Assembly: GCA_947463915.1 (NCBI GenBank) | Contig: CANHVO010000008.1 | Coordinates: 1-52,362 of the forward strand | DNA length: 52,362 nucleotides | Direction of reading: 5' to 3' | From: Planctomycetaceae bacterium | Lineage (GTDB): Bacteria > Planctomycetota > Planctomycetia > Pirellulales > Pirellulaceae | In this document: in pieces, positions 13,680 through 50,166 of the stretch | Layout of the letters: the number at the start of each line of letters is the position of its first letter | Position numbering within the stretch: position 1 is the first letter of the stretch | Notes under the pieces: model-generated | What the model was told of the DNA's origin: nothing | Seen by the model: only the letters and a program-made list of their open reading frames with translations | The model's database searches: none | Program-made: the position numbers and the translations under genes

Positions 13680-13764
13680 TAGCACGACGCCCAAGCTAGT
13701 GGATTAGCACGGCGCGCAGCCTAGTGCATCATCCATCCAATTCACTAGCTAGCGCGTCGTGCTA
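13680..13764. repeat. Inverted repeat TAGCACGACGC...GCGTCGTGCTA
   Basis: Left arm 13680-13703 (TAGCACGACGC-x-C-x-AGCTAGTG) and right arm 13741-13764 are inverted copies of about 24 bases with three mismatches. A third partial copy (TAGCACGGCGCGCAGCCTAG) lies between them near 13705-13724. The last three bases form the stop codon of the acetyltransferase gene. A related inverted pair is at 29944-30004. Confidence 0.8.
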
Positions 13765-14169
13765 TTGCCTTGGCAAGTACCAGGCACTTCGATGAGGAGT
13801 CATCCCAATATGCGGATAATACGATTCGGCCGCCGGAGCCGAAAGCAGCAAAAGCATCGTTTTGAGACCCGCCGCTTCATGTGTTCGTTCAATCAAGATT
13901 CGGCCGATCCCTCGACCTTGATACCCCTTATCGACCGCCAAATCCGACAAATAAGTGCAATAACAAAAATCGGTTATTGCTCGAGAAACCCCAACCAACA
14001 ATCCAGCCGTTGTTCGCGCCGCAACAATCACCCCCGCGTTCTTCAGCATCCCACAAATCGTTTCATGATCGTCAACGGGCCGCCGCTCCGCGAGCGTCGA
14101 TCGCACCAAACAATCGATGAATTCCTCTGCTCCAAGTTCGGGTTCAAGTCGGTAGATGATGTCGGTCAT
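13762..14169 (-). CDS. GNAT-family N-acetyltransferase
   Basis: Small acetyl-CoA-dependent N-acetyltransferase, 135 aa from the ATG at 14169. The acetyl-CoA-binding motif A is clear: [20 protein letters not shown]. Motif B follows with YYPHIGM. Substrate is unknown; the compact form resembles amino-acid or small-molecule acetylases. The longer open frame to 14292 is rejected because its extra N-terminus reads through a repeat (14232-14280). No good Shine-Dalgarno sequence is seen. The TAG stop lies in the terminal bases of an inverted repeat. Confidence 0.85.
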
Positions 14170-14231
14170 GGAGAGCAATGCAATGTTATCGAAACATAAA
14201 GAAGAGGACGAACAGATCGATAGCCGACGGG

Positions 14232-14280
14232 CGATAGCCCCGGTTTCCAAGCTCGACCTTCGCCGAGAACCACGGCTATC
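14232..14280. repeat. GGTTTCCAAG hairpin repeat
   Basis: GATAGCCCCGGTTTCCAAG is followed by GCTCGAC, TTCG and CGAGAACCACGGCTATC, giving a hairpin whose ends GATAGCC and GGCTATC pair. The same element in the same orientation recurs at 46328-46375. Confidence 0.7.
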
Positions 14281-14329
14281 ACCCCTTGTCATTACCTATA
14301 TCTTTTTGACTTCCATCGTACTCGCACTC

Positions 14330-14556: not shown

Positions 14557-15999
14557 TTAGCCGACTGTTTGCGGTACTCGCATCGGAACAATTTGATACG
14601 CCCGAGACCGGAATAGGAAGTCGATCAAGTTCCCTTCGTGTGGTTGCAACCAATTGAGACGGCTCGTTGGCATCGGACCAATGTTCAAGCGATCAATATG
14701 CGTCGCATTGGTCAAGTCATCAATCCACGCTTCATCGGCAGTGAGCGCTGTGCCGACCAGTGTCGGTCCAATCGACTTGATCATGTCCTTTTGGCTGCAC
14801 TGCACTACCGAGACGAATGGAAACATGTACTCCTTCATCGCGACTCCGCGTTGCGGCGAGTCGGCGGTAACTACCATCGGACGCAAGTAAGCAGATCGTT
14901 CACGCTCAACGAGTCGCTCACCAAAAGAAGCTGTCATGTCGGTCACGCCAGCTTCGGCCAAGTCCTGCTGGACCATAGCGAAAGTTCCTTTGGCCATCTG
15001 CGGATTGGTGAATGCCGCCAGTGCTGCCTTCGGATCGGTAGGTGGCAAAATCTCGATAGCTCCCATTCGAGCAGCAAGCGCCTCGCCGATGGCTTTGGTG
15101 TGGCGAGATGCCCAAATGCCTGAACAATTGATGCAACTCCGGCCTGAATTGCTTAGGACACTCTCAACCATCAAATCCAAATAGTCTTCCCAATGGTCGA
15201 CAACATCGTCACCGATCAAGATCTTCGAAAATCCCGGACCGTGCGCTTGGACGCGTGGATTGCCTGAATATTGTTCGACCGTATGTGCACTGCCAAAGAT
15301 CATGCTTCGGGAACACTTGTTCATGATGGTTGAACCAACATCGTGCCCGCCTGGGTACAAACAAAACGCTTCGGCAGGAATCCCCGCCTCAATGTAAGCA
15401 CTGATCATTCGGTAAGGGGTCCATGGCTCTTGCGAGCCCGGTTTCAGCACCAAGCCAACCTGGAGAGGAACAGCAGGAAGCCACAACGTATGTACGCCGG
15501 GTGAGTTGTTCGGCAAAACAGCGCCAAGCACTGGTGTCTGACACTGGTAACTCACCGTCACATTGCGACCTTCTTCACCGTAACCTTTGCTGAAAATGTC
15601 GAGAGCTAAACCTCGCGTGAGGGCGTCGAGAATCGTGTCGATGTTGCTCAAAACAAAACAGTTCTTCTGCATGTTGTTTCGACACATGTGCTCGGGGAGA
15701 CCAGTGCTCGCCGATTGCTGATGAATGAACTCGTCGACCGTCTGTTGACCGTCACCCAGCGGCAGTGTCTCATGTTCGAAAAGGTGCGCCGCCCTCTTGC
15801 AGCGAGCAATCAATTCGGGAGTGGGAATGGACCGCAGCGCCTTCCGAGCATTCGCAGCTTTCCGCATGTCCATCTCGACCATGCCGCCATTTACTTGCCC
15901 GATCTTCGCAATAGGCTCGCCAGTATCAAAATGAAATACTTCCTGGAAATCAAGTGACTTGTATTGCTTGCCCCAGCGAATTGGGTTGATCGTCAGCAC
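14557..15999 (-). CDS. Aldehyde dehydrogenase-superfamily acyl reductase (LuxC-like role)
   Basis: NAD(P)-dependent enzyme of the aldehyde dehydrogenase fold, 480 aa. It has PNNSPGVHTLWLPAVPL (oxyanion Asn region), LKPGSQEP (cofactor-binding Lys186) and SNSGRSCINCSG, giving catalytic Cys289 with a second Cys at 292. No obvious general-base Glu appears at the usual YPGG-region position (PGGHDVG), as in acyl-CoA or acyl-enzyme reductases, which do not hydrolyse a thioester. The start is GTG at 15999 with GGGAG nine bases upstream; the longer frame begins with TTG. It is the last of three same-strand genes after an adenylating enzyme and an alpha/beta hydrolase. A role in reducing the activated acyl group to aldehyde is inferred. 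Confidence 0.75.
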   Translation of the reverse strand: MLTINPIRWGKQYKSLDFQEVFHFDTGEPIAKIGQVNGGMVEMDMRKAANARKALRSIPTPELIARCKRAAHLFEHETLPLGDGQQTVDEFIHQQSASTGLPEHMCRNNMQKNCFVLSNIDTILDALTRGLALDIFSKGYGEEGRNVTVSYQCQTPVLGAVLPNNSPGVHTLWLPAVPLQVGLVLKPGSQEPWTPYRMISAYIEAGIPAEAFCLYPGGHDVGSTIMNKCSRSMIFGSAHTVEQYSGNPRVQAHGPGFSKILIGDDVVDHWEDYLDLMVESVLSNSGRSCINCSGIWASRHTKAIGEALAARMGAIEILPPTDPKAALAAFTNPQMAKGTFAMVQQDLAEAGVTDMTASFGERLVERERSAYLRPMVVTADSPQRGVAMKEYMFPFVSVVQCSQKDMIKSIGPTLVGTALTADEAWIDDLTNATHIDRLNIGPMPTSRLNWLQPHEGNLIDFLFRSRAYQIVPMRVPQTVG

Positions 16000-16121
16000 G
16001 TTTATAAACTCCCGAGAATGTAAGTGACAATGGATTCGCCCCAACAGATTCGTCGGGGGCTACAGGTGATCGGAAATCATTTTCACGAATCACCAATGGG
16101 ATGAATTTGGCTTGAAATGAA

Positions 16122-17252
16122 CTAGTAGACACCAACGGTGGTTGAGGAAGCAAACGCCCTATAAGGCCGAACACCGCTCACGCCATCCCACGGATACTTC
16201 GTGTAAGGCATCTCTCGTTCCCCTTCGTCTCGCTCCAAAAATCCAGGGACAAAGAACTCCTTCGTCATTGTGTAGAGTTTCACTCGGCCTGTTTCGCCAT
16301 ACCCAACAACCTTGGTATGGTCATCGAAATCAACGACTTCGACGACTGCTCTAGGTTGTGGAGCGTAGTAAGCAATCGTGTAGTCTTCCTCTAGGATCAC
16401 CGGCCTTGAACAAGCAAGCCCCATCAGCGTATTGCCGTACGTTGGCGTCATGTAAACACCGCTCTCTTCGGCTGGACCGCCGAGGAGTTCCTCGACGCAA
16501 AAACGTGTCCACTGCGGAGTGAATTCCGTCCCTCCTGAGAATATCCCAGTGATCCCGATTTCTTGGATACTGGTATCCTTTTCCGCTAGTCCAGCAGCCA
16601 GCGACTCAAGCAACTTCGGCGTCGTGAACATGCATTTAATATCGTGATTTGCCGTCAAGATAGTAATGGCTTGATCAATGCAATGACGCTTGTATTCCTC
16701 TAGGTGCTCCATCCAGCCCTTCTTAATCAGCTTGACTACCCAGCGTGGATCTAGGTCGATACAAAAGCATATCCCGCCGCGATACTGACATAGATGTTCG
16801 ATCGCCAAACGCAGACGTCGCGGACCAGACGGGCCGAGCATCAACCAATTACTTCCTTTCGGAAAATACTCATCCGGCAGTGTATGGCTGAACAATTCGT
16901 AATCGATTCGAAAATCATCGATTACCATTCGGCTTTTTGGGATACCCGTTGTTCCCCCGGTCTCAAAAACGTAGGTAGGTTTTCCCAACAATCCCTTTGG
17001 TATCCAACGGTTGATCGGACCTCCGCGAAGCCATTCATCTTCAAATTCTGGAAACTTCTTCAAGTCATCGAAAACCTTCACTTCTTTCAACGGATCGAAC
17101 TTGAGCTCTTTTTTCTTCTCAAGCCAAAAAGGCGACCCCGTTGAGTCATGAAAGTGCCACTGCACCGATTCATAAGCATGTTGATCGAGGGATTGCTTTG
17201 CGGTCGCGATTTGCTCGGTTGTAGCCAACCAGGCGGGAGATGAAGCGGTCAT
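16122..17252 (-). CDS. LuxE/phenylacetate-CoA ligase-like adenylating enzyme
   Basis: Carboxylate-activating enzyme of the AMP-forming superfamily, 376 aa from the ATG at 17252. The P-loop is ETGGTTGIPKSRMV (residues 97-110), equivalent to the SGTTGxPK motif. Further landmarks are ITGIFSGGTEFTP and YGNTLMG, and a C-terminal GYGETGRVKLYTMTKEFFVP. The length fits acyl-protein synthetase LuxE (about 370 aa) better than phenylacetate-CoA ligase (about 430). It should make an acyl-adenylate and transfer the acyl group to a thiol; the acceptor is not evident. It lies 122 bp upstream of the reductase and 132 bp downstream of the hydrolase. An upstream TTG at 17354 would lengthen it but adds no family sequence. 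Confidence 0.75.
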   Translation of the reverse strand: MTASSPAWLATTEQIATAKQSLDQHAYESVQWHFHDSTGSPFWLEKKKELKFDPLKEVKVFDDLKKFPEFEDEWLRGGPINRWIPKGLLGKPTYVFETGGTTGIPKSRMVIDDFRIDYELFSHTLPDEYFPKGSNWLMLGPSGPRRLRLAIEHLCQYRGGICFCIDLDPRWVVKLIKKGWMEHLEEYKRHCIDQAITILTANHDIKCMFTTPKLLESLAAGLAEKDTSIQEIGITGIFSGGTEFTPQWTRFCVEELLGGPAEESGVYMTPTYGNTLMGLACSRPVILEEDYTIAYYAPQPRAVVEVVDFDDHTKVVGYGETGRVKLYTMTKEFFVPGFLERDEGEREMPYTKYPWDGVSGVRPYRAFASSTTVGVY

Positions 17253-17384
17253 AGATGGTAGGGTAGGGATAGAGACGTGGTGGATCGAACAACTGTCCGA
17301 CCTCTGCTGAACTGACTTTCCGCCAGCATTGTAACCGAATTTCCAGGCCTGCAAAACGCTTGCTTTCGGCGTCCGTCTCTTCGT

Positions 17385-18242
17385 TTAGGTCAAATCCCGT
17401 ATCCAATTGCCGATACAATCGCCAAGCTGGCCCAAAACCCCGCGATAGGAATGGTCCGCGTCAGCGATCACGCAAACGGTTTGCTTAGCATCAGAGGCGA
17501 CTAGGCTTAGTTGTCGCTTTAGATCGATGTCCGCACCACGAAAGTTTGCCGAGCCCTCCTCAACCTCAAATTGGCCAAACGTCCAAAGCGTTGGAATTCT
17601 CAATTGGTCGGCGAATGCAAGATAATCGTACTTGTCGCCGCTTCCGTATTTGTCTTTGTATGTTGAAGCGCATATCCACATCGGCAATGGAAAACGGACC
17701 TTCATCACGAACTCAGGAGCCCCATTCTCACAATTGTCTGTGGCCTCAGCGAGATGACGCTGGAAGACCGGCCCACGAACAGGGTCCTTAAGCAATAAAT
17801 CCGTGTTTAGGCGTGGAGGAGATATTGCTACCAGCGAGCTAAGGTGATCATGTTTTTTCAGGCTCCAAAGCAGGCACTTGAGGGCTCCCAAACTATGCCC
17901 TAACAATGAAATGCGTCCCACCCCTCTCCCGACCAGGAACTGGACCCAAGCATCTAGATCAAGCTGGCTGGCGGAGAGGCTCTCGATCTGCGAACCCAGC
18001 CGCATCGGTGTCGGTCCCGTATTGAAGCTGAGGATGTCGTGCCCGCGAGTATTGACAATCAGCACTGCAGTGTCTTCGGTTGCGAGTTTTCGGCTAAGCT
18101 CGCTAAGTAGCGTTGAACTATAGAAGTTGCTGTTCACTCCATGAACGCAGATCCAAGCCTTTTCAAGCCGACGAGGCTCGGAAAGAAAACCATGCAACTT
18201 CACTCCGTCGCTTGTCGTGGTCTGTACTAGTGTTCCGAGCAT
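17385..18242 (-). CDS. Alpha/beta hydrolase (possible LuxD-like acyl hydrolase)
   Basis: Serine hydrolase of the alpha/beta fold, 285 aa. The nucleophile elbow is LLGHSLGALK (Ser117), the oxyanion region is CVHGVNSNFYSS, and the catalytic His is in DADHSY (His264). ATG at 18242 is preferred over an in-frame TTG at 18257, which lies in a terminator. No signal peptide, so cytoplasmic. As first gene of the trio with an adenylating enzyme and an aldehyde dehydrogenase-like reductase, it could release the carboxylic acid that the next two enzymes activate and reduce. Sequence alone does not distinguish an esterase from a thioesterase. Confidence 0.8.
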   Translation of the reverse strand: MLGTLVQTTTSDGVKLHGFLSEPRRLEKAWICVHGVNSNFYSSTLLSELSRKLATEDTAVLIVNTRGHDILSFNTGPTPMRLGSQIESLSASQLDLDAWVQFLVGRGVGRISLLGHSLGALKCLLWSLKKHDHLSSLVAISPPRLNTDLLLKDPVRGPVFQRHLAEATDNCENGAPEFVMKVRFPLPMWICASTYKDKYGSGDKYDYLAFADQLRIPTLWTFGQFEVEEGSANFRGADIDLKRQLSLVASDAKQTVCVIADADHSYRGVLGQLGDCIGNWIRDLT

Positions 18243-18255
18243 TTTCGCGATCGTC

Positions 18256-18287
18256 AAAAAAGAAGGCCATCGAACAAGTCGATGGCC
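18256..18287 (-). terminator. Rho-independent terminator of the Gly-rich protein gene
   Basis: On the minus strand a perfect 8-bp stem GGCCATCG/CGATGGCC with a 7-base loop (18265-18287) is followed by a T-rich tract (TTCTTTTTT, 18264-18256). It lies 36 bp after the stop of the gene ending at 18324 and ends only 14 bp before the hydrolase ATG. The hydrolase trio therefore either starts its transcript inside this region or depends on read-through. Confidence 0.8.
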
Positions 18288-18323
18288 CCAATACTTCGTT
18301 CGTCACGTTACGCACGTGATCAA

Positions 18324-19493
18324 TTACCTAATTGGACTAACAACCGGTGCATTATTGTTGTCGTCGGCTGCAGCCACGATCCCAACTGCAGCGAGAGCGC
18401 CAATTGCTGCAAGACCGCCCAAACCGCCAACTCCAGCACCGATACCACCGCCACCGCCGCCGCCCCCACCGAATCCACCGCCAAAACCACCTCCGCAGCC
18501 ACAAGTCGAGGCTATTCCGCAATCATCGACAGGTACCGCACAAGCGTCAGTAACAACGGTCTCGACCTGTTGCTCGCATGCCACAACCTCGCAGCAAGCA
18601 ACAACTTCAACATTCATCTGACCGCAAGCGTCCCCAATAGCAGAAATCAATCGACTGCCATTCGAGCCAACCGATGCATTCGAATTGCTCACAAGTTGAA
18701 AGGAAGTTGCCGCAAAACCCGAGTTACCCGCCGCCACGAATCCATAAGCACCGGGCTTCAGGCCTTCAAACGAAAACTTGCCTGTGCTATCGGCCACGGT
18801 TCTCGCTACCTCTTTACCGTTCCGAAGAACATAAACGACCATGTCCTCCATCTTCTTTTGAGCGATCGCAGAACCAAGTTGTCCAGAAAGCTTTCCTTCG
18901 CTATCAATTTTTACCAAGTGCGATTTGCTGAACGACCGCGAATCTCCGAGCGGATCTGTTGAAATGTCTTGAATTTCTTCTCGAACAGTATAGCTCGGCA
19001 ATGATTGCGATCGAAGGATTTCGGTAATCTTCGCGCCGGCTGGACGAACCACGCGGACCTCAACCGAACTGCCCAAGTGACTGTTCTCTGCGTCGAGCAC
19101 TTGCAATGAGAATGCGGCAATGGATTCGTTGGTACGAACCACCAAAGAGTAAGAGCCAGTCTTGACGTCCGACAAAACGAATGCTCCCTTATCGTCAGCC
19201 TTTGCGGAGTAAACCACTTCGCCATCGCGAACCAATGCGACAGGAAGCCCCATCGAAGGTGCCGAACCGTTGTCGTTCAACTGAACCAAGCGACCAGAGA
19301 TCGAGTTGTCTTTACTCAAACAGACCCACTGATTGCTGAACAACTGATTCAGTTGCGTGGTTGACGCTTCATTATTTACCACCGAAACGCTGTCATCTGC
19401 GTAAAGGCTTGGCGCTATTCCGAACGACAAACTTGTGGACAACACTAATGTAAAAAGCTTCGAAAATCGGTTCAGACGTGATTCAAAATTCAT
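18324..19493 (-). CDS. Secreted protein with carboxypeptidase-regulatory-like repeats and Cys/Gly-rich tail
   Basis: Exported protein of 389 aa. The ATG at 19493, with AGGA upstream, gives a signal peptide ending near SLYA-DD. Two beta-sandwich units of the carboxypeptidase-regulatory/SpaA type follow. The first is near residues 50-130 (SGRLVQL, DDKGAFVLSDVKTGSYSLVV); the second is near 200-265 (GKLSGQL, DSTGKFSFEGLKPGAYGFVA). The C-terminus has a Cys-rich stretch (VVACCEVVACEQ, DDCGIASTCGCGG), a run of about 20 Gly/Phe residues and an Ala/Gly-rich hydrophobic segment. This layout is common in planctomycete envelope proteins; a cell-surface role is inferred. Terminated by the hairpin at 18256-18287. 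Confidence 0.75.
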   Translation of the reverse strand: MNFESRLNRFSKLFTLVLSTSLSFGIAPSLYADDSVSVVNNEASTTQLNQLFSNQWVCLSKDNSISGRLVQLNDNGSAPSMGLPVALVRDGEVVYSAKADDKGAFVLSDVKTGSYSLVVRTNESIAAFSLQVLDAENSHLGSSVEVRVVRPAGAKITEILRSQSLPSYTVREEIQDISTDPLGDSRSFSKSHLVKIDSEGKLSGQLGSAIAQKKMEDMVVYVLRNGKEVARTVADSTGKFSFEGLKPGAYGFVAAGNSGFAATSFQLVSNSNASVGSNGSRLISAIGDACGQMNVEVVACCEVVACEQQVETVVTDACAVPVDDCGIASTCGCGGGFGGGFGGGGGGGGGIGAGVGGLGGLAAIGALAAVGIVAAADDNNNAPVVSPIR

Positions 19494-19800
19494 GTTGTAA
19501 ATTCCTGGTTCAGGCAAATCTCTGATTTAACGACACCCCCCATTGGTGATATCCGATAGCTAAAGCTTTCACAAGCTTTTTTTAGCAAAAACACAGAAGA
19601 ATTGATAGAATCAGAACAAAAGGCCAATCCGCAGTAGTCACCACAATACGGTAACTACTCAAAACTCTTTTGAAGATTCTTATTAAGACACAGCCGACAA
19701 AAGTGAGCCTGAGGCGCTAGCCGAGTTCTTTTGACCTGCAAAAATCAGCTCGCGCCTCCATCTCATGAGAATGAAATCCGGCTTTTGTCGGCCTTAACTA
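19494..19800. other. Intergenic region before the Gly-rich protein gene
   Basis: It holds the upstream region of the 18324-19493 gene and, near the other end, a large inverted repeat (19693-19792) just after the next gene's stop. The middle (about 19520-19690) is A/T-rich with no recognisable feature. Confidence 0.5.
19693..19792 (-). terminator. Long hairpin after the coiled-coil protein gene, containing a repeat
   Basis: Outer arms GCCGACAAAAG (19693-19703) and CTTTTGTCGGC (19782-19792) are perfect inverses. Inner arms GAGGCG and CGCCTC pair inside. TGAGCCTGAGGCGCTAGCCG (19704-19723) matches the inverse of 46249-46268 at 17 of 20 bases. It starts 9 bp past the stop codon, so a transcript-end function is plausible; there is no T-tract of the classic kind. 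Confidence 0.5.
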
Positions 19801-23500: not shown

Positions 23501-26497
23501 TTATAAAAATGGTGCTGTAATCGATAACGGATTGGCACGGATCGATTCGACCGAACCTGACGCGGTAATCTTCCCACCCAGCGGCCCAGCCCCTGGGCCA
23601 AGCTCGATCAAATGGTCCGCAGCACAAATCATCTGCTGATTGTGCTCAATAACCACGACGCTATTGCCGCTGTTGATTATGGCGTCGATACATAGAAGCA
23701 ACCGTTGTACGTCGCTAAAATGCAAGCCTGTTGTAGGTTCATCGAGCACAATCAAATTGCCCATTTTGGCTTCCGATTTCGGCTTGCGAGAACTAAGGTC
23801 GAGATGGCTTGCAAGCTTGAGTCGCATGGACTCACCAGCCGACAACGTAGCCAGGCTTTGCCCCAACGGCAGATACCCAAGGCCAATCTCAATAAGAGGT
23901 TTCAGTCGCTCTTGAACCTTGGCGCTGCCACGGAAAAAACTCGAAGCGCGATCGACGCTCATCTCCAACACTTCTGAAATACTCAGGTCGCGATAACGCA
24001 CCTCAAGCACTTCCGCTCGAAATCGCTTGCCGTCGCAGTCTTGGCAAGGCAACTGAACATCCGCCATAAACTGCATGTCGATCGTGGTGTACCCAAGCCC
24101 CTCACACGTCGGACACCGCCCCAAATCACTATTGAAACTAAAGTGCCCAGCCCCAAATCCTCGAGACTTGGCATCTGACGTGTCGGCAAAGACCTGTCGA
24201 ATATCGTCCATCGCCTTCGAATAAGTCGCTGGGCTGCTGCGCATCGATCGCTGGATCGGACTTTGATCAATTGCCAAACAAGCGTATAGGTTTTCCATGC
24301 CAAAAAGACTCTCAAAAGGCAACCCCGGATCAGCCTCGTTATCAAAGAAACGTTCGACCGCTGGGCAAAGTGTGTCCAGGATCAAAGAGCTTTTGCCGGA
24401 ACCGCTAGGGCCAATCACGACCGTCAATCGATTGGCTGGAATGGACAATTCATCCACCTTTAAATTACGGCCGCTGGCACCTCGAATTCCAAACCAATTC
24501 GAACCTGTCGGTATTGAAGTTCGCTGAGTTTGTCGTGCGCCACTTAGATACTCGCCAGTCACGCAATCGCTTCGAAGCAATTCGGATGGCGTCCCTTGAA
24601 ACGTCACGCGGCCTCCTAGCTCGCCCGCTTGCGGACCAATCTCTACAATGCGATCAGCAATTCGCATCAAGTGCGGTTCATGCTCCACCAGCACAACCGT
24701 GTTGCCTCGATCACGTAGCCCCAGAATCGCACCAGCCATGCGTTCCGTGTCCTGTGGATGCAAGCCAACCGTCGGCTCGTCAAAAACATATAGCATGTCG
24801 ACCAAGCTTGAACCGAGCAATGTTGTCATCATCACTCGCTGGGCCTCGCCCCCGCTCAATGTATGAAGGGGCCTCGCCAAAGAAAGATATCCCAGCCCGA
24901 CACTTTGCAAATACTCGATCCGAGACAAGACCTGACGTTGTGGCTCCGATGCGACGTACCGGCTTCGATTTTCCGCTGCGAGAATGAAGTTCGATGATTC
25001 GTTTTCCTGCAAAAGCTCCTGTGTGCCCGCTCGAACTCTGTTGGGTCGCAGTGAATCGTCTAGTTCGACCGCCAGCAACTGCCATAGGTCATCGATGGTA
25101 AGTTCGCACAATTGAGCAAAACTCTTGCCGCAGAGTTGGTAAGCCAACGACTCCCGGTTTAGCCGTTGCCCATTGCAAGCCTGACAGCTTGAATACGTTC
25201 GCCATCTCGCCAAAAAAGCCCGCACATGCATCTTGTACTTTTTGCGTTCCAGCCAGGCAAAAAAACCATTCAGTCCTCCGAACGCTCGCTCTGGAACCCC
25301 TTCCTGGATCCAACGCCACTGCTTGGGCTTTAGTTTCGAGACCGGCACATCAAACGGGATGCCATATTCCTCAGATAAACTTCGCAACTCTTCCAACTCA
25401 TGCGAGTAAGCTGGAGTTCGCCAAGCGGCAATCGCACCCTCATCCAAACTCAAGGCATCGTCAGGAATCACCTTCTTCATGTCGATCGAGACGGTTTCAC
25501 CGAACCCTTCGCAGGTTGCACAAGCCCCGATCGGACTATTGAAATTAAATAGTCTTGGCTCACTTTCAGGATAGTCGATTTTGCAGTGCTCGCAGCGAAG
25601 CGAGGTCGCAAAACGATGCACCACGTATTCCACATCATCGACCGTGAGTTTCTCAAGCGATGATTCGTTTGCCGCTGGCTCCACATCAACGGCAGCCTGA
25701 ACCAAAACAATCGCTCTGCTGCTCCCCATATTGTCCCGGTGGTCAAACGCTGTGGCCAGCGACTGCACCATTCGATCCAACTCTTGTCGATCCATCTCTG
25801 GGAGGCTGCCAAGCTTCAATCGATCGACGACGACGAGAGCTTGTCCGCTGTCCTCCAGCAAAGTGGCTAACTGCTTGCGGTCATCCTCGGCCAAGTGGAT
25901 CGTTTTCCCGGCAGCAATCAATCGAATGAATCCTGTCGACTGCAAATCGAACAGCAATTCGGACAAACCACTTTTGGTTTGCCACCCTATCTCGAAACAA
26001 ACGACAACTCGTCGGCCAGAGTACTTGAATAGACTGTCGGCTACGGTTTTCGGACTATGCGACTCAATCTTCCGATGGCATTGATAACACGTCAGAGCCG
26101 CACGATTCGCGAAAACCACACGCAGGTATTCCAACATTTCGCTAGCAGTGCCGACCGTGCTGCGATTGTTGCGAGATCGAAGCTCGCGGGTAATCGCAAT
26201 CGAGGGTGGCAAATGGACCAACGAGTCGAAGAACGGCTTGTCAATGCGTTGCAAAAACTGCCGTGTATACGCCGAAAAACTCTCGATGTATCTTCGCTGC
26301 CCCTCCGCGTAAAGCGTGTTCAAAGCGAGCGAAGTCTTTCCGCTGCCGCTAACCCCGCAAACGACGGTCAGCTTGCCAATTGGGAAATCTAGGTCGATAT
26401 TTTTGAGATTGTGCTGACGCGCGCCACGCAACGAAATGTTTGCGATGGGTTCGCTGGAAATCGAGATTGGTTCGGCAGGGAGCTTTTTTTTTATCAT
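23501..26497 (-). CDS. uvrA: UvrA-family excinuclease ATPase, divergent paralogue
   Basis: ABC-type DNA-damage-recognition ATPase with two ATP-binding halves, 998 aa (canonical UvrA about 940). The first Walker A is GVSGSGKTSLALNTLYAEGQ (Lys54), followed by RRYIESFSAYTRQFL. The first ABC signature is LSGGEAQRV with VFDEPTVGLHPQD. The second Walker A is IGPSGSGKSSLILDTL; the second signature is altered to LSAGESMRLKLASHL, with VLDEPTTGLHFSDV. CxxC zinc modules are visible (CATCEGFG, CQACNGQRL, CPTCEGLGYTT, CQDCDGKRF). The altered signature and nonstandard N-terminal insertion (CYQCHRKIESHS) suggest a UvrA2-like paralogue, not the main repair subunit. The start ATG is followed within four bases by nine A residues. 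Confidence 0.88.
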   Translation of the reverse strand: MIKKKLPAEPISISSEPIANISLRGARQHNLKNIDLDFPIGKLTVVCGVSGSGKTSLALNTLYAEGQRRYIESFSAYTRQFLQRIDKPFFDSLVHLPPSIAITRELRSRNNRSTVGTASEMLEYLRVVFANRAALTCYQCHRKIESHSPKTVADSLFKYSGRRVVVCFEIGWQTKSGLSELLFDLQSTGFIRLIAAGKTIHLAEDDRKQLATLLEDSGQALVVVDRLKLGSLPEMDRQELDRMVQSLATAFDHRDNMGSSRAIVLVQAAVDVEPAANESSLEKLTVDDVEYVVHRFATSLRCEHCKIDYPESEPRLFNFNSPIGACATCEGFGETVSIDMKKVIPDDALSLDEGAIAAWRTPAYSHELEELRSLSEEYGIPFDVPVSKLKPKQWRWIQEGVPERAFGGLNGFFAWLERKKYKMHVRAFLARWRTYSSCQACNGQRLNRESLAYQLCGKSFAQLCELTIDDLWQLLAVELDDSLRPNRVRAGTQELLQENESSNFILAAENRSRYVASEPQRQVLSRIEYLQSVGLGYLSLARPLHTLSGGEAQRVMMTTLLGSSLVDMLYVFDEPTVGLHPQDTERMAGAILGLRDRGNTVVLVEHEPHLMRIADRIVEIGPQAGELGGRVTFQGTPSELLRSDCVTGEYLSGARQTQRTSIPTGSNWFGIRGASGRNLKVDELSIPANRLTVVIGPSGSGKSSLILDTLCPAVERFFDNEADPGLPFESLFGMENLYACLAIDQSPIQRSMRSSPATYSKAMDDIRQVFADTSDAKSRGFGAGHFSFNSDLGRCPTCEGLGYTTIDMQFMADVQLPCQDCDGKRFRAEVLEVRYRDLSISEVLEMSVDRASSFFRGSAKVQERLKPLIEIGLGYLPLGQSLATLSAGESMRLKLASHLDLSSRKPKSEAKMGNLIVLDEPTTGLHFSDVQRLLLCIDAIINSGNSVVVIEHNQQMICAADHLIELGPGAGPLGGKITASGSVESIRANPLSITAPFL

Positions 26498-32645: not shown

Positions 32646-32708
32646 TGTGACACAGCTATCAAAGCCGTGATTCACACAATTGCTCTAGGAAGAAAAATAC
32701 ATACAGCG

Positions 32709-35300
32709 ATGACTCGATTTTTTCATTTCTTCTCCATAACACTCGTTTTGATCGCCGGTGTGTGCTTACCAGGTTGCGATCGAGCGGCTACCAAAACCAA
32801 GTTGGAAGCCGGAAGCAAAGAACCTCAATCCGACAAGAAGCCTGAGCCCGCTGCCGTTGAGGATTCTAGCATTGCGGCTAAATCGTTGCTGGAAGCCTTC
32901 ATGGCTAAATACAAAAAACTCAAAAGCTATGAGGACCTCGGAGTCTTGACGATTCGGCTACCAACCTTGGATGGCCTGAAAGTCATTACGGAACCCATGC
33001 GGATCGCTTATGAGGCACCGAATAGACTTGCTATTCAGGCGAGAGCTCTTCAAGCGATGTGGTCCGATGGCGATGGAGGAACTTGGCAAGCCATGGTTGG
33101 AGCTGAGGACTTCAAACCATTCGGGAAACAACGGATGGTAAGACCACTGCCTTTAGCGATCGATCTAACTTGGTTGGTCGTTGACAACTTGGGAGCGATT
33201 CTGAATGATCCCGCGCTTGGTTCGCCGATTCAATTGCAATTGTTGCTCCACGAAAAGTCACTTGAATATTTGCTCGTTCCGGAAGCCAAGCTATCGATGC
33301 TTGAGTCGAAGGAATTCGACTCGGTAAAATGCGAGCGAGTTCAAGTGGTCCTCGCGGACCAGAAATGGGTCTTTTGGATCGACGCGGACAAATTGCTTCG
33401 CAAATGCGAATGGCCAAGCCAAGCCATCGTCGCGTTGCTTCCTGGTTTACCCGCGGACTTCGATACGAAGTCTTCGGAAGTGTCGATCGATTTTACCAAA
33501 GTGAAAACCAACGGGAGTATCGATTGGTCCGTATGGCAACTGCCCAAGGAACCAGATGCACTTCTGGTACGGCGTTGGATCGATGCGCCTCCACCCAAAT
33601 CATCACCGATTGTTGGGGAAAGACTCAATCAGTTCGACTTGATTGGAGCTGATGGTGTGCGCATTCTCGATTCGGCGCAGCGCGCCAAGCCCATTACGGT
33701 AATGTTTTGGATTACCAACGATGACATGGGTGAGAAGTTGGTGAAGTATGCGTTTGAGGTCCAAAGCAAGCTTCGCGAGAAAGGACTTACCAAAGCGGAG
33801 ATCTTTCTCGTCTCCCAAGGTAATGGAAAGGAAATGCAAGCAGCGCTTGCCAAATGGAATTGCACTTTGCCGCTCGCGATTGACACCAAGAACATGACCC
33901 GTGACTTGTTTGGCATTCAACGTCAGCCAGCCGTTGTCATTATTGACAAAGATGTTCGCGTTCAGCATTTTAGCGACGTCGATTTGCGGTTTATTCCCGA
34001 GATCGTAGAAGAACTGCAAAGAGGCGTGGATATTGCTTTAAGAAAAAAGCAGCTGGAGTTGGACAATGAGGCCAGATTCAATTCGAGATTGCACAGAGCC
34101 ATCATCGATAAATCGCAAACGGAAAAACTAGACCCAATTTCTAGTTTCCCGTTCAGCAATCATCAAATCAAGGGCAGCTGGAAAGTCTCATTTGAGAACT
34201 CGATTATTGCGGCAAGCGCTGAGCACTATTACCCACAATCCGGGCTTGCTGTGGACGGCTCGCAGCTTTTTACAGAATCTGCTAGTAAGCATCGGGTGAT
34301 GACCGTTCTCGATGACTCGGGGCGAGTCTATTCGGTCGACAACAAGGGCAATAAGGACTTGATTGCGAACATCCCGACGGAACAAGCAGTCAACCCAAAG
34401 CGAATCCACGTTCTACCTGATCCTTGGCTTCATCGTTGGATTGCGATTGTGCCAGAAGGATTGCCTCGTTACTGGTTGATTGATTCTGCAGCAAGTACCG
34501 AAAGCGGTCCGCTCGATGCGACGCAGTTTGATTTTGAGAATCAAGACGAGTCGCCTGTTGCATTCACATGGGCAGTACGAGATGGTGACCCTGTTTTGGT
34601 AATCGCGACCAATGCGGCCAAATTGGATGTGCAGACCCCAACGGATAAGAAACGGTTTAGCTACGCAGCCGAGTCGGTTGTTTCTATCGCACCGACCATC
34701 AATGATCGTGGGGAAACGTACTCATGGAACTTGATCAAGGCAAATGGAGATATTGAGGAACTCGAGTTTCTTAGGTCGAAGACGAGTGCCGGCACCGAAC
34801 CCAATGGCTCGCAGCTCAAAAAGCTAAGCATTGCTCCACAACCCGGTGCATGGGAATGGGGAAGGAATGGAAACCAAAGTGTCATGCTAGGGATGTCTCA
34901 GTTGCCAAGCGGTGAAACCGGTTCCGTTCTTCAGACTCGTTTTTTTGAATCGAGGTTGCGGCATCCGTTGTCGGTTCGACCTGAGCAATGCCGCATTCTA
35001 TCTTCTGCAACGCTCAAGGATGGATCGTTTTATTGGCTTTCAACCGGGCCCAATCGGGTTTTGCACATACAAGCTGCAGACGGAATGTCCGGCGACCAAA
35101 TGTCGTTGGGCACACGCATCTTTGCGGCTGGGCTGTTCCCGGATGGAGAAAACTTGCAGACGGTTCTTGCGGTAGAAAGAGAAGTCAACTGCTGGTCCGT
35201 AACGATTCCTCGACTTCCAGCGAATATCCCAACGTCTGAGGCTAAACCTGAGGCTCCCGCCAAAGAGGCTGTAAGCGCTTCGGAGCGACCTAGTGCGTAA
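32709..35300 (+). CDS. Lipoprotein with LolA-like and thioredoxin-like regions
   Basis: Predicted lipoprotein of 863 aa. The ATG at 32709 gives a signal peptide with lipobox CLPGC (Cys23); a GTG at 32667 is possible. Residues about 55-270 resemble a LolA/DUF2092-type beta-barrel (LLEAFMAKYKKLKSYEDLGV, IAYEAPNRLAI). About 290-470 resemble an AhpC/TlpA thioredoxin fold (LNQFDLIGADG, FGIQRQPAVVIIDKD), but the CxxC position reads FWITNDDMG, so no thiol chemistry is expected. The C-terminal 400 residues look like a beta-propeller with no identified family. It is third in the operon and overlaps the next gene by 8 bp. Confidence 0.75.
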   Translation: MTRFFHFFSITLVLIAGVCLPGCDRAATKTKLEAGSKEPQSDKKPEPAAVEDSSIAAKSLLEAFMAKYKKLKSYEDLGVLTIRLPTLDGLKVITEPMRIAYEAPNRLAIQARALQAMWSDGDGGTWQAMVGAEDFKPFGKQRMVRPLPLAIDLTWLVVDNLGAILNDPALGSPIQLQLLLHEKSLEYLLVPEAKLSMLESKEFDSVKCERVQVVLADQKWVFWIDADKLLRKCEWPSQAIVALLPGLPADFDTKSSEVSIDFTKVKTNGSIDWSVWQLPKEPDALLVRRWIDAPPPKSSPIVGERLNQFDLIGADGVRILDSAQRAKPITVMFWITNDDMGEKLVKYAFEVQSKLREKGLTKAEIFLVSQGNGKEMQAALAKWNCTLPLAIDTKNMTRDLFGIQRQPAVVIIDKDVRVQHFSDVDLRFIPEIVEELQRGVDIALRKKQLELDNEARFNSRLHRAIIDKSQTEKLDPISSFPFSNHQIKGSWKVSFENSIIAASAEHYYPQSGLAVDGSQLFTESASKHRVMTVLDDSGRVYSVDNKGNKDLIANIPTEQAVNPKRIHVLPDPWLHRWIAIVPEGLPRYWLIDSAASTESGPLDATQFDFENQDESPVAFTWAVRDGDPVLVIATNAAKLDVQTPTDKKRFSYAAESVVSIAPTINDRGETYSWNLIKANGDIEELEFLRSKTSAGTEPNGSQLKKLSIAPQPGAWEWGRNGNQSVMLGMSQLPSGETGSVLQTRFFESRLRHPLSVRPEQCRILSSATLKDGSFYWLSTGPNRVLHIQAADGMSGDQMSLGTRIFAAGLFPDGENLQTVLAVEREVNCWSVTIPRLPANIPTSEAKPEAPAKEAVSASERPSA

Positions 35301-37224
35301 TCGAATGGGGCGAGCACTTTCGTGGCTGGTTTTGTGGTTTCTGCATGTCTTGGGAAACACGAATTCGGTCGTCGGATTCAATCCGCTGCAGGAATCTAAT
35401 GAGAAAGGCTTCCAAACAGCAGCCTCGACGGAACCATCCTCATTGGAACGCCAAATTGCACTGAGGTCGCTTGAAGAAATTGTGACACGGGCATCCAAAA
35501 TGTCCGCAGCGACTTCGGACACCCAATTTGCCGAGACGCTAGGTTCGCTTCGTCTATTGTTGGATCTTGAACCCAAGGGACGCCATCGATACGTTTTGCC
35601 AAGAGCATCAAGCGCTTCGAAGCTTAATTCTGACCGCTTGAAAAAGGTGCTGGATTCCGAATCGACTGGCCTCAAGTTAGCGATCGAGGCGCTCCGCAAG
35701 TCTGTCGAAAAAGAAATTGAAACGGCTGACTCGGAGCAAAACTGGGAGTTAGGTTATCGATTGCGATGGCGGCTGGCTGGCCTTAACGCGATCTTGCCTA
35801 ACGCGAGCGATGCAAAACGCGTTCGCAATGAACCTTGGTCGCATGCGAAAGCCCTGGACACGACGCCAGACGGAAGAAAGGCCTTTGCGAATCATCCCAA
35901 GACGCGTTGGCCTGCGAATTCCTACACGGTCATGACGACGCCTCATTTTGAAATAGCCTCGCAATCCGATACGAAGTCGACAGTTGAGGTTGCCAGCTTG
36001 AGTGAGCAAGCGTTTGCGGTTTGGAAGCAGGTTTTCTATTCCGCGTGGGCCAATAAACAAACAGTTGCACCTGAGTATGCTGAGCCGGTCGATCATAAAT
36101 TCTCGGTGGTGTTGTTTCGTGATCGCGAGTCGTACACCAAGGCTCTAAGGTCGATTGCGGACATTGCTATTTCGACAGGCTACTATGATCCGAGCGAAAA
36201 GGTAGCGTTCTTTTATTGGGATGGAGCCAAAACGCCAAGCACGCTTGTCCATGAATTGACCCACCAATTCTTTTATGAAGCGAGTGCCAATCCTGTGGCC
36301 TTGGATGCCAATCGCGGGAAGGGTTTTTGGGTCGTCGAGGGGGTCGCGTTGTACATGGAATCGTTGTCCACGCGAGGTTGCGGCGGTAGTTTGGTCGTGG
36401 ACCTTGGCGGATGGGACGCACCTCGATTGCAAGCTGGCCGATACCGTCGACTTCACGACAAATATTGGGTCCCCTGGGAGGAATTCCATTGGGCGGACGG
36501 AACGCGTTTTCGTGCCGAGGAGGACATCCGTGCTTGGTACAGCCAAGCGACCGGGCTAGCTCATCTGTGGTTGGACGGTTCGGTAGAGAAACGCGTTGCC
36601 TTTGCCGCTTATGTCGAAAGCGTGTATGCAAATCAGGCGTCAACTGCATTGCTGGGTGATTGGGACGACGACAAGGCTATGCGAGATGCTTACGATCGTT
36701 ATTTGATTAGCGGTTCGTCCGTGATGGCTTCTCGGCCGTTTTTTGCGAATCGTCGCGAGGCCGTCCTTTGCCGAACGAAACTTTCAGCCAAGGAGCTCCT
36801 GGAGTGGCCTGTTGAGTTCCGAACGACCCCATGGTTGGATCTCTCGTTTAGTCAGATCGATGATCTTCTTTTTACGGAAATGGAAAAACTGCCTCCACCT
36901 TGGAATGTTCAGCGTTTGAATTTGGAGTCAACCAAGGTCACCGACGCATCGTTGCCAGCGATCGCTGGGATGAAGAATTTGGCAGATTTGGATTTGTCGA
37001 ATTGTGACGTTTCGGATGAAGGTATCAAAGCGTTGAGCGGGCACAAGTCGCTCAAAACCATATGGTTGAACGAGTGCAAGGTGACGGACGCTTCGATGGC
37101 CGTTCTTTCAACGATTCCACAATTGGAATCGGTGCACTTGTCCAAAACAGCGGTAACGCCTGCAGGTTGGCGTCAATTGTTGTCGACGAAGCCACGATTG
37201 AAAAGCAAATCAACGGCACCGTGA
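35293..37224 (+). CDS. Exported DUF1570 metalloprotease-like protein with C-terminal leucine-rich repeats
   Basis: Protein of 643 aa from the GTG at 35293, with GGAG seven bases upstream; ATG at 35305 is an alternative. A signal peptide covers about 28 residues. The zinc site is LVHELTHQFFYEAS (His320, Glu321, His324) with downstream WVVEGVALYMES (Glu349) as the likely third ligand, a gluzincin pattern. Residues about 530-640 are leucine-rich repeats of the TxVTDASLPAIAGMKNL type, about four units, usually protein-binding. It overlaps the lipoprotein gene by 8 bp, so translation is probably coupled. Fourth and last gene of the operon. Substrate unknown. Confidence 0.85.
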   Translation: MRNRMGRALSWLVLWFLHVLGNTNSVVGFNPLQESNEKGFQTAASTEPSSLERQIALRSLEEIVTRASKMSAATSDTQFAETLGSLRLLLDLEPKGRHRYVLPRASSASKLNSDRLKKVLDSESTGLKLAIEALRKSVEKEIETADSEQNWELGYRLRWRLAGLNAILPNASDAKRVRNEPWSHAKALDTTPDGRKAFANHPKTRWPANSYTVMTTPHFEIASQSDTKSTVEVASLSEQAFAVWKQVFYSAWANKQTVAPEYAEPVDHKFSVVLFRDRESYTKALRSIADIAISTGYYDPSEKVAFFYWDGAKTPSTLVHELTHQFFYEASANPVALDANRGKGFWVVEGVALYMESLSTRGCGGSLVVDLGGWDAPRLQAGRYRRLHDKYWVPWEEFHWADGTRFRAEEDIRAWYSQATGLAHLWLDGSVEKRVAFAAYVESVYANQASTALLGDWDDDKAMRDAYDRYLISGSSVMASRPFFANRREAVLCRTKLSAKELLEWPVEFRTTPWLDLSFSQIDDLLFTEMEKLPPPWNVQRLNLESTKVTDASLPAIAGMKNLADLDLSNCDVSDEGIKALSGHKSLKTIWLNECKVTDASMAVLSTIPQLESVHLSKTAVTPAGWRQLLSTKPRLKSKSTAP

Positions 37225-48372: not shown

Positions 48373-50166
48373 TCACTCCCTTAATCGTATCGACAACAAA
48401 GCTTGAGCAAGCGCTTTGCCTTGCGCATCATTTCTCAACCCACGTCGCAAAATCCCCTTCACTACGAAGTTGAGCCCGCCGAGATTTTCCATTTCAAAGC
48501 GCTCCACCGAAGTGATTCCGATCGGTGAAAAGAATTGTGCAACTCGATCTGCAGTTAGCCACTTCTTCAACCAGTCATAGTCGCTCATGGACCGCACAAG
48601 TATTCCGACGTTTGCCCCCGTCCCTTTGTCGCCGCTCCGCCCATGCGCCACATCCAACAAGCAGTTCGCTTCAGATACCGCAATCTGCTTTTTCAATGGG
48701 ATACTCGAAGTTAGTTGCTGAGGGAAGCGATTTTTCAGGTGTGGCCAAACTGCGGCAGTTAGGCGGATCGCTGTTGTCTCATCGGATTGAAAGGTCTCTA
48801 AGGTTGGACGAGCAAGTTTCGCATCAATAAGGCACGGCCAATAACGGATCACTCCATGCACGCGAGGTCGCCCCTCTGCATACCCAGTTGTACCCTGCGG
48901 TCCAGCAGTAATCAGAGGCATTAGTTCTCGCGAAAATCGCTCTACGTCGCTCTTCTTATCGGACTCGACGGCAATTCTCAAAACCGTTTCGTAAAGCGAA
49001 TGCCCTGCTTCTGTAAGATTCGCAACCGGAACACTTTCGGCATTGCCCAAGCACTCGACGATCGAATCGCGAAAAACAACCCCTGCTTCCCGAAGTCGCT
49101 GGAGGACCAGATCACCACAACAACGAGCCTTGACGACGGACTGCGGACCAAAAAATGTAAGCATCCCTGCCGCACGATAGCCATCGCGGTAGGTTGCGCT
49201 GACCTTAAGCGTTTCCGGACGCGGGCTTCCGATGGCCCCACTCACTCGAACCCGATTGACTCCGATGCTTTCGACTTCGAGAGAAAGAAATGAAACCGCG
49301 CAATCGGGGCTCAAGTAGTTTCCAGGGTTTCCAATTTCGTAGATGAGTTGCTCCTTGATGGTTGCCGGAGTTACGCATCCGCCTGACAGTTCCGATTTGG
49401 TGATTGTGCAACACCCGTCACGATGGATCTCCGCGATTGGGAATCCAAGGTGCACCGGGTCCGGAACATCGAGCCAATCGGTCGAGATGCCGCCTGTCGC
49501 ATGGGTACCGCATTCCAACAGATGGCCCGCGACCGTCGCACCGGCCAGTTCATTCCAGTCATCGTTCTTCCAACCGAACTCGTAAACGCACGGTGCGACA
49601 ACCATCGATGGGTCCGCAACGCGGCCGGTGATGACGATGTCTGCTCCGGCTGCTAACGCTTGCACTATTCCATCGCAACCCAAATACGCATTGGCGGTCA
49701 CCAAGCGATCTATGACGCTAGTCAGCGGGTCCGATGAGTCCAAATTTTGAAACTGAGTTGAGTTCGTTTCACTGGCGAGCAGGGCAGGCAACACATCGTC
49801 GCCAGCCACTACGCCAATCTTCATGGAACGGCACCCGGACTTTTCCAGCGCTGCAATACAAGCTCGAGCGCATTCCAGCGGGTTCAAGCCTCCAGCATTG
49901 GCAATCAATCGGCAACGTCCTCCCGCCGCCCAATATTCCGCGAGGCTTCGAACCACTTCGACGAAGTCTTGGGCATAACCAAGCTTTGGATCGCGTTCAC
50001 GTTGCAAGGCCAAGATCGACATAGAGACTTCGGCCAGATAATCCATCGTGAGATAGTCGAGATCTGGCTCTTGCGAAAGAATCTCAACCGCAGCCGACGG
50101 CCGATCTCCCCAAAAGGCCTGCGCGTTTCCGACCCGAATCATTTCTCGTGCTTTGGTGTTGGTCAC
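48373..50166 (-). CDS. AtuA-family protein (acyclic terpene utilisation-like)
   Basis: Protein of about 597 aa, family named for AtuA of the acyclic terpene pathway; biochemical role unproven. The N-terminal domain has IRVGNAQAFWGDRPSAAVEI, DLDYLTMDYLAE, RLIANAGGLNPLECAR and DIVITGRVADPSMVVAP. The C-terminal AtuA-like ferredoxin-fold domain contains DVAHGRSGDKGTGANVGILV. The GTG at 50166 overlaps the preceding stop by four bases (GTGA), a classic coupling arrangement; ATG at 50142 is the alternative. It is the last gene of the PrpD-carboxyltransferase-AtuA operon, and proteins of this family often sit with acyl-CoA carboxylases. Confidence 0.88.
   Translation of the reverse strand: MTNTKAREMIRVGNAQAFWGDRPSAAVEILSQEPDLDYLTMDYLAEVSMSILALQRERDPKLGYAQDFVEVVRSLAEYWAAGGRCRLIANAGGLNPLECARACIAALEKSGCRSMKIGVVAGDDVLPALLASETNSTQFQNLDSSDPLTSVIDRLVTANAYLGCDGIVQALAAGADIVITGRVADPSMVVAPCVYEFGWKNDDWNELAGATVAGHLLECGTHATGGISTDWLDVPDPVHLGFPIAEIHRDGCCTITKSELSGGCVTPATIKEQLIYEIGNPGNYLSPDCAVSFLSLEVESIGVNRVRVSGAIGSPRPETLKVSATYRDGYRAAGMLTFFGPQSVVKARCCGDLVLQRLREAGVVFRDSIVECLGNAESVPVANLTEAGHSLYETVLRIAVESDKKSDVERFSRELMPLITAGPQGTTGYAEGRPRVHGVIRYWPCLIDAKLARPTLETFQSDETTAIRLTAAVWPHLKNRFPQQLTSSIPLKKQIAVSEANCLLDVAHGRSGDKGTGANVGILVRSMSDYDWLKKWLTADRVAQFFSPIGITSVERFEMENLGGLNFVVKGILRRGLRNDAQGKALAQALLSIRLRE

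Follow-up and report, generated by a model that had tools for sequence, protein, structure and literature searches.

Genes at the locus

The stretch of DNA analysed here, positions 1 to 52,362 of contig CANHVO010000008.1 of a Planctomycetaceae bacterium (the window, 52,362 nucleotides), holds three consecutive minus-strand genes that encode an alpha/beta hydrolase, an adenylating ligase and a reductase of the aldehyde dehydrogenase (ALDH) fold (Table 1). Judged from sequence, the ligase and the ALDH-fold protein probably form a two-component aryl-carboxylic-acid reductase that would work most like the GriC/GriD type, and the trio itself is a local arrangement in which this conserved pair is joined by an accessory gene. 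All three open reading frames lie on the same strand where the initial annotation had placed them, and the details that it gave, namely Ser117 and His264 of the hydrolase, Cys289 of the reductase and a ligase of 376 residues with the motif TGGTTGIPK, are correct in every number. The hydrolase positions are counted from the ATG and refer to the GHSLG serine and the ADHS histidine, which become 122 and 269 in the TTG frame. Since the longest open frame across 200 base shuffles of the stretch was 226 codons, the three frames are not due to chance.

Table 1. Features of the hydrolase-ligase-reductase locus, with positions in the window
Feature	Position	Strand	Basis
Alpha/beta hydrolase (serine hydrolase), accessory member of the unit	17385..18242	-	ATG start; PF12697/PF12146/PF00561
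Adenylating ligase, EhpF/GriC type, 376 aa	16122..17252	-	ATG start; EhpF match, alignment A2
TGGTTGIPK motif of the ligase, residues 98-106	16935..16961	-	Conserved in alignment A2
ALDH-fold reductase, 495 aa from TTG	14557..16044	-	PF00171; AlphaFold model
Reductase from alternative start GTG, 480 aa	14557..15999	-	Open reading frame
Catalytic Cys of the reductase, 304 in the TTG frame (289 from GTG)	15133..15135	-	Alignment columns
His268 of the reductase, at the column of the classical general-base Glu268	15241..15243	-	Alignment columns
Terminator-like hairpin, 11 pairs and T tail, just upstream of the hydrolase	18263..18289	-	Consensus match only

The hydrolase and ligase genes are separated by 132 bp and the ligase and reductase genes by 77 or 122 bp, depending on the start of the reductase. 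Given the hairpin before the hydrolase gene, the trio may be a transcription unit of its own, but the hairpin is weak evidence for this, since a consensus scan of the region gave 5 terminator-like sites and thus fewer than the shuffle mean of 7.4.

Families and conserved residues of the ligase and reductase

Against Pfam the ligase gives only a sub-threshold match to PF00501 (E 4e-4), and among solved structures it matches EhpF (3l2k, 3hgu; E 6e-40) over residues 28-366. It thus has the sequence characters of the EhpF/GriC type, that is homology to EhpF over the full length, a size of about 370 residues and no C-terminal AMP-binding subdomain. Furthermore, the ligase and EhpF-type proteins share in alignment A2 a GGTTG-type motif, YGNT or YGST, ERDxxxR and a C-terminal EGVY (EGLY in L087), and TGGTTGIPK is, by its position, presumably the ATP/AMP-binding loop. 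In a ligase tree of 27 rows EhpF and its closest plasmid relatives form one clade (99/98). A grouping with phenylacetate-CoA ligases, which the initial annotation had named as a sign against its own proposal, was not seen: the single PaaK-type ligase in the tree sits on a far-off, very long separate branch, and the C-terminal domain PF14535, which is matched in the PaaK-type neighbour of a relative, is not matched in the window ligase.

A tblastn search for plasmid relatives gave 28 records, 20 of which are listed, and seven loci were opened (L086-L092). Among the 20, four carry the annotation 'arylcarboxylate reductase' and two are annotated as phenazine biosynthesis proteins. An ALDH gene lies directly downstream of the ligase in five of the seven loci (L086, L088, L089, L090, L092), and genes that make or use chorismate, coding for anthranilate synthase, aminodeoxychorismate synthase, isochorismate synthase or DAHP synthase, are likewise found near the ligase in five (L086, L088, L089, L090, L091). 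A more distant EhpF-like ligase (32-33% identity) occurs in family f44 (L070-L072), perhaps anammox bacteria; no ALDH partner was found within the 18 kb examined in three genomes, and this ligase was set aside. Read by eye, the surroundings of the ligase in L071 include multihaem cytochromes and genes resembling those of SDR-type reductases and RND-type exporters.

The reductase matches PF00171 (Aldedh, E 5e-22) and no other Pfam family, and its AlphaFold model, with a mean predicted local distance difference test (pLDDT) score of 90.3, has the ALDH fold. We aligned 12 planctomycete and 5 EhpG-type rows with two classical ALDHs taken from the genome of the window. All 17 pair reductases keep the Cys, next to the column of the classical one, and it is invariant in all 34 rows of a further alignment (A5), and the column of the oxyanion Asn169 is likewise retained. 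In ALDHs, Glu268 is the general base of deacylation and acid formation. Its column holds Glu in both classical ALDHs, whereas it holds His in all 12 planctomycete rows (and in 34 of 34 rows of A5) and Gln, Arg, Leu or Tyr in the five EhpG-type rows, and thus Glu in none of the 17 pair reductases. With His in place of this general base the protein lacks a mark of the acid-forming aldehyde dehydrogenases, a grouping with which the initial annotation had named as a sign against its proposal, and the missing deacylating Glu suggests that the enzyme is adapted to reduction rather than acid formation.

The initial annotation had taken the trio for a LuxD-LuxE-LuxC-like fatty-acid reductase whose long-chain aldehydes would go into alcohols, wax esters or hydrocarbons, and the activities of hydrolase, adenylating enzyme and ALDH-fold reductase do in principle follow the same order. 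This explanation is however made very improbable by the facts that LuxE (PF04443) has no match in the ligase at E<=0.1 and LuxC (PF05893) none in the reductase, that neither profile has a match in the whole genome (the LuxC control gave a signal in 11 of 14 genomes and exceeded the cut-off in 7, while the LuxE control was weak, with a signal in 3 of 14 control genomes and above the cut-off in none), and that the ligase is close to EhpF instead. A Lux module was consequently rejected, and what survives of the Lux-like trio is an adenylating ligase with an ALDH-fold reductase as carboxylate-to-aldehyde logic, not homology to LuxC or LuxE. A role in fatty-acid, wax-ester or hydrocarbon metabolism is furthermore in poor agreement with the relatives of the ligase, which are EhpF/GriC-type enzymes found mostly in aromatic pathways, and with the chorismate-lyase-like gene of the set described below.

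Conservation of the pair and its gene set

The distribution of the genes was studied in 294 Planctomycetota genomes, with cut-offs of E<=1e-100 for the ligase and E<=1e-40 for the reductase; the ligase cut-off was chosen after the results had been seen, in a gap between 1e-108 and 9e-46. A ligase match of any strength was obtained in 81 genomes, and the 21 with weaker matches only were left out of the 60 considered here. At these cut-offs the ligase and the reductase occur in the identical 60 genomes, from 24 families, with no singletons, and in 52 of them the reductase follows the ligase in the same orientation at a distance of less than 2 kb, while in one it is 4.8 kb away. Neighbourhoods were fetched for 40 of the 81 genomes. 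Among 80 named loci, which are the best of 585 confirmed and many of which are cut short by contig ends, the reductase is the next gene downstream of the ligase in 74; two of the other six end at a contig edge, one has the reductase about 3 kb on, one has it on the opposite strand and two have none in the DNA examined. An ALDH-fold gene beside the ligase, the gene arrangement of the EhpF/GriC-type two-component reductase, is thus seen in the window and in the great majority of these loci and genomes. The best named ligase matches among the 80 are from Pirellula-like bacteria (L129, 93% identity). The pair is present in 4/4 sampled genomes of the family of the window, in 16/16 of another family of its class and in 20 of 21 of the class, and in G167, a genome of the same order, the ligase, the reductase, the chorismate-lyase-like gene and the HemN-like gene are all unmatched. 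Families f12 and f10, among others, have members both with and without the gene set, which argues for its joint loss or gain. The carboxylate-to-aldehyde core of the initial annotation is borne out by this shared occurrence and adjacency, taken together with the missing deacylating Glu and the absence of a PaaK grouping.

The initial annotation had asked whether the whole trio keeps its order across planctomycetes. This holds for the ligase and reductase and not for the hydrolase, which immediately precedes the ligase in 6 of the 80 named loci (72 of the 80 hold more than 1.5 kb upstream); this arrangement also occurs in another family of the order (L119). Of 19 genomes of the genus, its own included, 18 have the hydrolase, and in the stretches examined for three genus-mates (L123-L125) it stands apart from any ligase, the rest of those genomes not having been searched for one. 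In Pfam it matches general alpha/beta hydrolase families (best E 8e-8), and it has no relative in the PDB by sequence below E 0.7. The nearest folds to its model (pLDDT 80.1) include monoglyceride lipases and feruloyl/cinnamoyl esterases, and the 50 best are other hydrolases, mostly lipases and esterases, among which LuxD is not named. Neither profile, sequence comparison with the PDB nor fold thus gives it a special tie to LuxD, whose counterpart it had been thought to be, and this and its absence from most ligase loci speak further against a Lux-type system. The modelled fold is rather that of a putative accessory enzyme of esterase or lipase type.

The pair belongs to a gene set, predicted to be biosynthetic, that is common to many planctomycetes. 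Of the 60 pair genomes 43 have a chorismate-lyase-like gene, as against 0 of the 234 others; a HemN-like radical-SAM gene (E<=1e-90) occurs in 58/60 and 1/234, and an iron alcohol dehydrogenase (Fe-ADH) in 29 of 30 relatives. Downstream of the pair the 80 named loci hold genes for Fe-ADH (33), a propeller protein (30), HemN-like (19), GcvH-like (14) and ferredoxin-like (10) proteins. The pair is followed by Fe-ADH, a BamB-like propeller and the HemN-like radical-SAM enzyme in L115-L119 and L126, which are from other families of the order, and in L036, from another genus of the family of the window. In L036, L117 and L119 a GcvH-like protein of lipoyl type and one resembling ferredoxin are found downstream as well, and in L117 the run goes on with a protein resembling squalene-hopene cyclase, a fusion of DUF116 with a polyprenyl synthase, the chorismate-lyase-like protein and a flavoprotein of halogenase/geranylgeranyl-reductase type. 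Most members are also present in the genome of the window, where they are scattered, with Fe-ADH on contig C28, the HemN-like and GcvH-like genes on C389, and, grouped on C20, those for the cyclase, the prenyl synthase and the chorismate-lyase-like protein. The cyclase retains the motif DxDDT (DSDDT in the genome of the window), which we take to be the signature of type II terpene cyclases. The HemN-like and chorismate-lyase-like genes adjoin in 8 of 16 genomes of family f3, with the ligase elsewhere (coordinates counted by eye).

The label of chorismate lyase is likely, as judged from sequence comparison. A profile of ten of these proteins (A1) matches 2nwi, a 172-residue protein labelled hypothetical (E 8.6e-5), which we take to belong to DUF98; the positions that are invariant (Arg, PLG, YGR and Glu) presumably resemble those of chorismate lyases. 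The DUF116-polyprenyl synthase is found in 50 of the 60 ligase genomes and also in 17 of the 234 others, among them G167, which lacks the pair. It was rejected as a marker of the pathway on account of these 17 genomes, which likewise make the terpenoid link weaker than the aromatic one. The DUF116 domain is seen fused to the polyprenyl synthase on contig C20 (G000; L215:4427-6331), and the DUF116 part has matches in 67 of the 294 genomes of the phylum, including the 21 listed from the class of the window.

In deeper lineages the pair is clustered with propeller proteins, a sodium:solute symporter, Fe-ADH, the HemN-like gene and the flavoprotein, and the chorismate-lyase-like gene is found in about half of these clusters. 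The symporter, the PaaK-type ligase that adjoins at some cluster edges and a divergent small gene that by eye resembles MarR-type regulators would all suit an aryl-CoA-forming or catabolic module, in which the ligase would activate an imported aromatic acid and the ALDH oxidise aromatic aldehydes during degradation. Such a module is nevertheless unlikely, since the general-base Glu is not present in the pair reductases, since the lone PaaK-type ligase branches so far from the others, since the confinement of the chorismate-lyase-like gene to pair genomes points to synthesis, and since no ring-cleavage gene was recognised in the annotated neighbourhoods, which make up a part of the fetched loci. 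It has also to be considered that the acid could be loaded onto CoA, an acyl carrier or the GcvH-like lipoyl protein, so that the aldehyde would be made from a thioester. The GcvH-like protein of the relatives' cluster (PF01597, E 7e-18) does have a lipoyl-type motif, a thioesterase-family gene is found in the cluster of other lineages, and there are weak matches to the CoA-acylating methylmalonate-semialdehyde dehydrogenase (MMSDH). The GcvH-like gene is however near the pair only in the class of the window and the closest named loci, while the pair is spread wider, and GriC/GriD are described, in passages of PMC10179220, as acting through acyl-AMP, which makes a thioester route quite unlikely.

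Upstream of the trio (18324-19517, minus strand) lies a gene whose product has two carboxypeptidase-regulatory-like domains and a Gly-rich tail, and this protein is encoded upstream of the ligase in 11 of the 80 named loci, mostly Rhodopirellula- and Pirellula-like. None of the 80 has the neighbouring GNAT (13762-14292) or POT transporter gene next to the pair, apart from one POT-like match on the opposite strand in L188. The window also holds an AtuA-family (acyclic terpene utilisation) protein (48373-50268, minus strand; E 3e-141), a UvrA-like protein of 998 residues with ABC and UvrA DNA-binding domains (23501-26497, minus strand) and two large open reading frames of 877 and 643 residues with no Pfam match at E<=1e-8 (32667-37224, plus strand).

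Predicted reaction and pathway

As to activity, substrate, direction and product, the ligase would convert ATP and an aryl acid to the aryl-AMP, and the reductase would take the aryl group onto its Cys and release it as the aldehyde by reduction with NAD(P)H. The homology to EhpF, the chorismate genes near five of the seven plasmid ligases and the restriction of the chorismate-lyase-like gene to pair genomes argue for an aromatic substrate. The most likely candidate would be a chorismate-derived hydroxybenzoate, supplied by the chorismate-lyase-like protein, whose gene is near the pair in some relatives, and Fe-ADH, which is encoded by the next gene in many relatives, would probably convert the aldehyde to the alcohol.

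Several known systems bear comparison. EhpF belongs to the pathway of the phenazine D-alanylgriseoluteic acid in Pantoea/Enterobacter agglomerans, and EhpF/EhpG reduce a phenazine carboxylate. The ligases have the same length and motifs, and the Pantoea plasmid locus L088 has an ALDH gene directly downstream, but the reductases of L088 and the window are 24% identical and no phenazine gene was recognised in the annotated planctomycete neighbourhoods. LuxC, LuxE and LuxD likewise comprise separate acid-activating and ALDH-fold reducing proteins, from which the planctomycete pair differs in having no profile relationship to them, no conserved hydrolase and a probable aromatic substrate. The single-chain carboxylic acid reductases of the A-T-R type convert acid, ATP and NADPH to aldehyde, the same overall reaction as is predicted for the pair, which however consists of two proteins, has an ALDH fold instead of an SDR-type one and shows no match to a carrier domain in either protein. 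The closest likeness is to GriC/GriD of the grixazone pathway of Streptomyces griseus, where, according to passages of PMC10179220, GriC forms an acyl-AMP from 3-amino-4-hydroxybenzoate, which GriD then reduces to the aldehyde, so that an AMP-forming ligase and a separate reductase turn an acid of hydroxybenzoate type into an aldehyde. The likeness is one of described function; in sequence, the comparison was with a Streptomyces ligase annotated as 'arylcarboxylate reductase', which is 31% identical to the window ligase and has no ALDH gene beside it. Grixazone is furthermore the antibiotic of one strain, whereas the planctomycete pair is found in every sampled genome of the two families mentioned above.

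It should also be mentioned that a number of observations weigh against a two-component aryl-carboxylate reductase with a chorismate-derived substrate. The ligase is only 28-34% identical to EhpF/GriC-type ligases (A2), and the tree places the planctomycete ligases in a separate clade (94/90, below the star mark of the tool) and not in that of EhpF. Two of the seven plasmid loci (L087, L091) have no ALDH gene next to the ligase, and two (L087, L092) have no chorismate gene nearby. The reductase is 21-26% identical to EhpG-type partners, and its nearest solved folds are ordinary ALDHs (13-19% identity), the 50 best rows being generic ALDHs throughout, which does not settle its function. A Glu is found two residues before the Glu268 column in L055, L057, L062, L064 and L092, and an alignment error of one or two columns could make it relevant, although the window reductase has no Glu in the segment around this column. 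Ligase and reductase are far apart in 7 of the 60 genomes, six of them in family f3, and 17 of the 60 are without a chorismate-lyase-like match. The match of the chorismate-lyase-like proteins to PF01947 (Rv2949c-like) is sub-threshold (E 0.005) and comes from one sequence only (L117), four other copies and the copy of the genome of the window having no Pfam match. Finally, the Fisher values for co-occurrence ignore kinship, and the genome searches scored only a part of the candidates of each genome (5 to 11), so that absences are not proof.

A two-component aryl-carboxylate reductase could, as a more tentative extension, be one step of an undescribed aromatic-isoprenoid pathway, conserved across much of Planctomycetota, to a new membrane meroterpenoid or redox lipid, a possibility that we regard as rather doubtful. 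Along such a route chorismate would be converted to hydroxybenzoate by the chorismate-lyase-like protein, to the aldehyde by the pair and to a benzylic alcohol by Fe-ADH, a polyprenyl chain would be joined by way of the DUF116-polyprenyl synthase, the type II terpene cyclase would shape the product, and the geranylgeranyl-reductase/halogenase-like flavoprotein and the HemN-like radical-SAM enzyme would act as well. No description of the planctomycete pair or of the gene set was found among the papers listed from the open-licence literature.

If the ligase and reductase do act as a two-component aryl-carboxylate reductase, an aryl-acid reductase pathway, to our knowledge otherwise known only from antibiotic clusters, would belong to the near-core gene content of at least one planctomycete class. 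The pair would furthermore be a new ATP/NAD(P)H-dependent aryl-acid reductase for biocatalysis, it would tie chorismate to isoprenoid genes without an assigned product, and it would offer a testable entry to a metabolite common to many lineages of the phylum.

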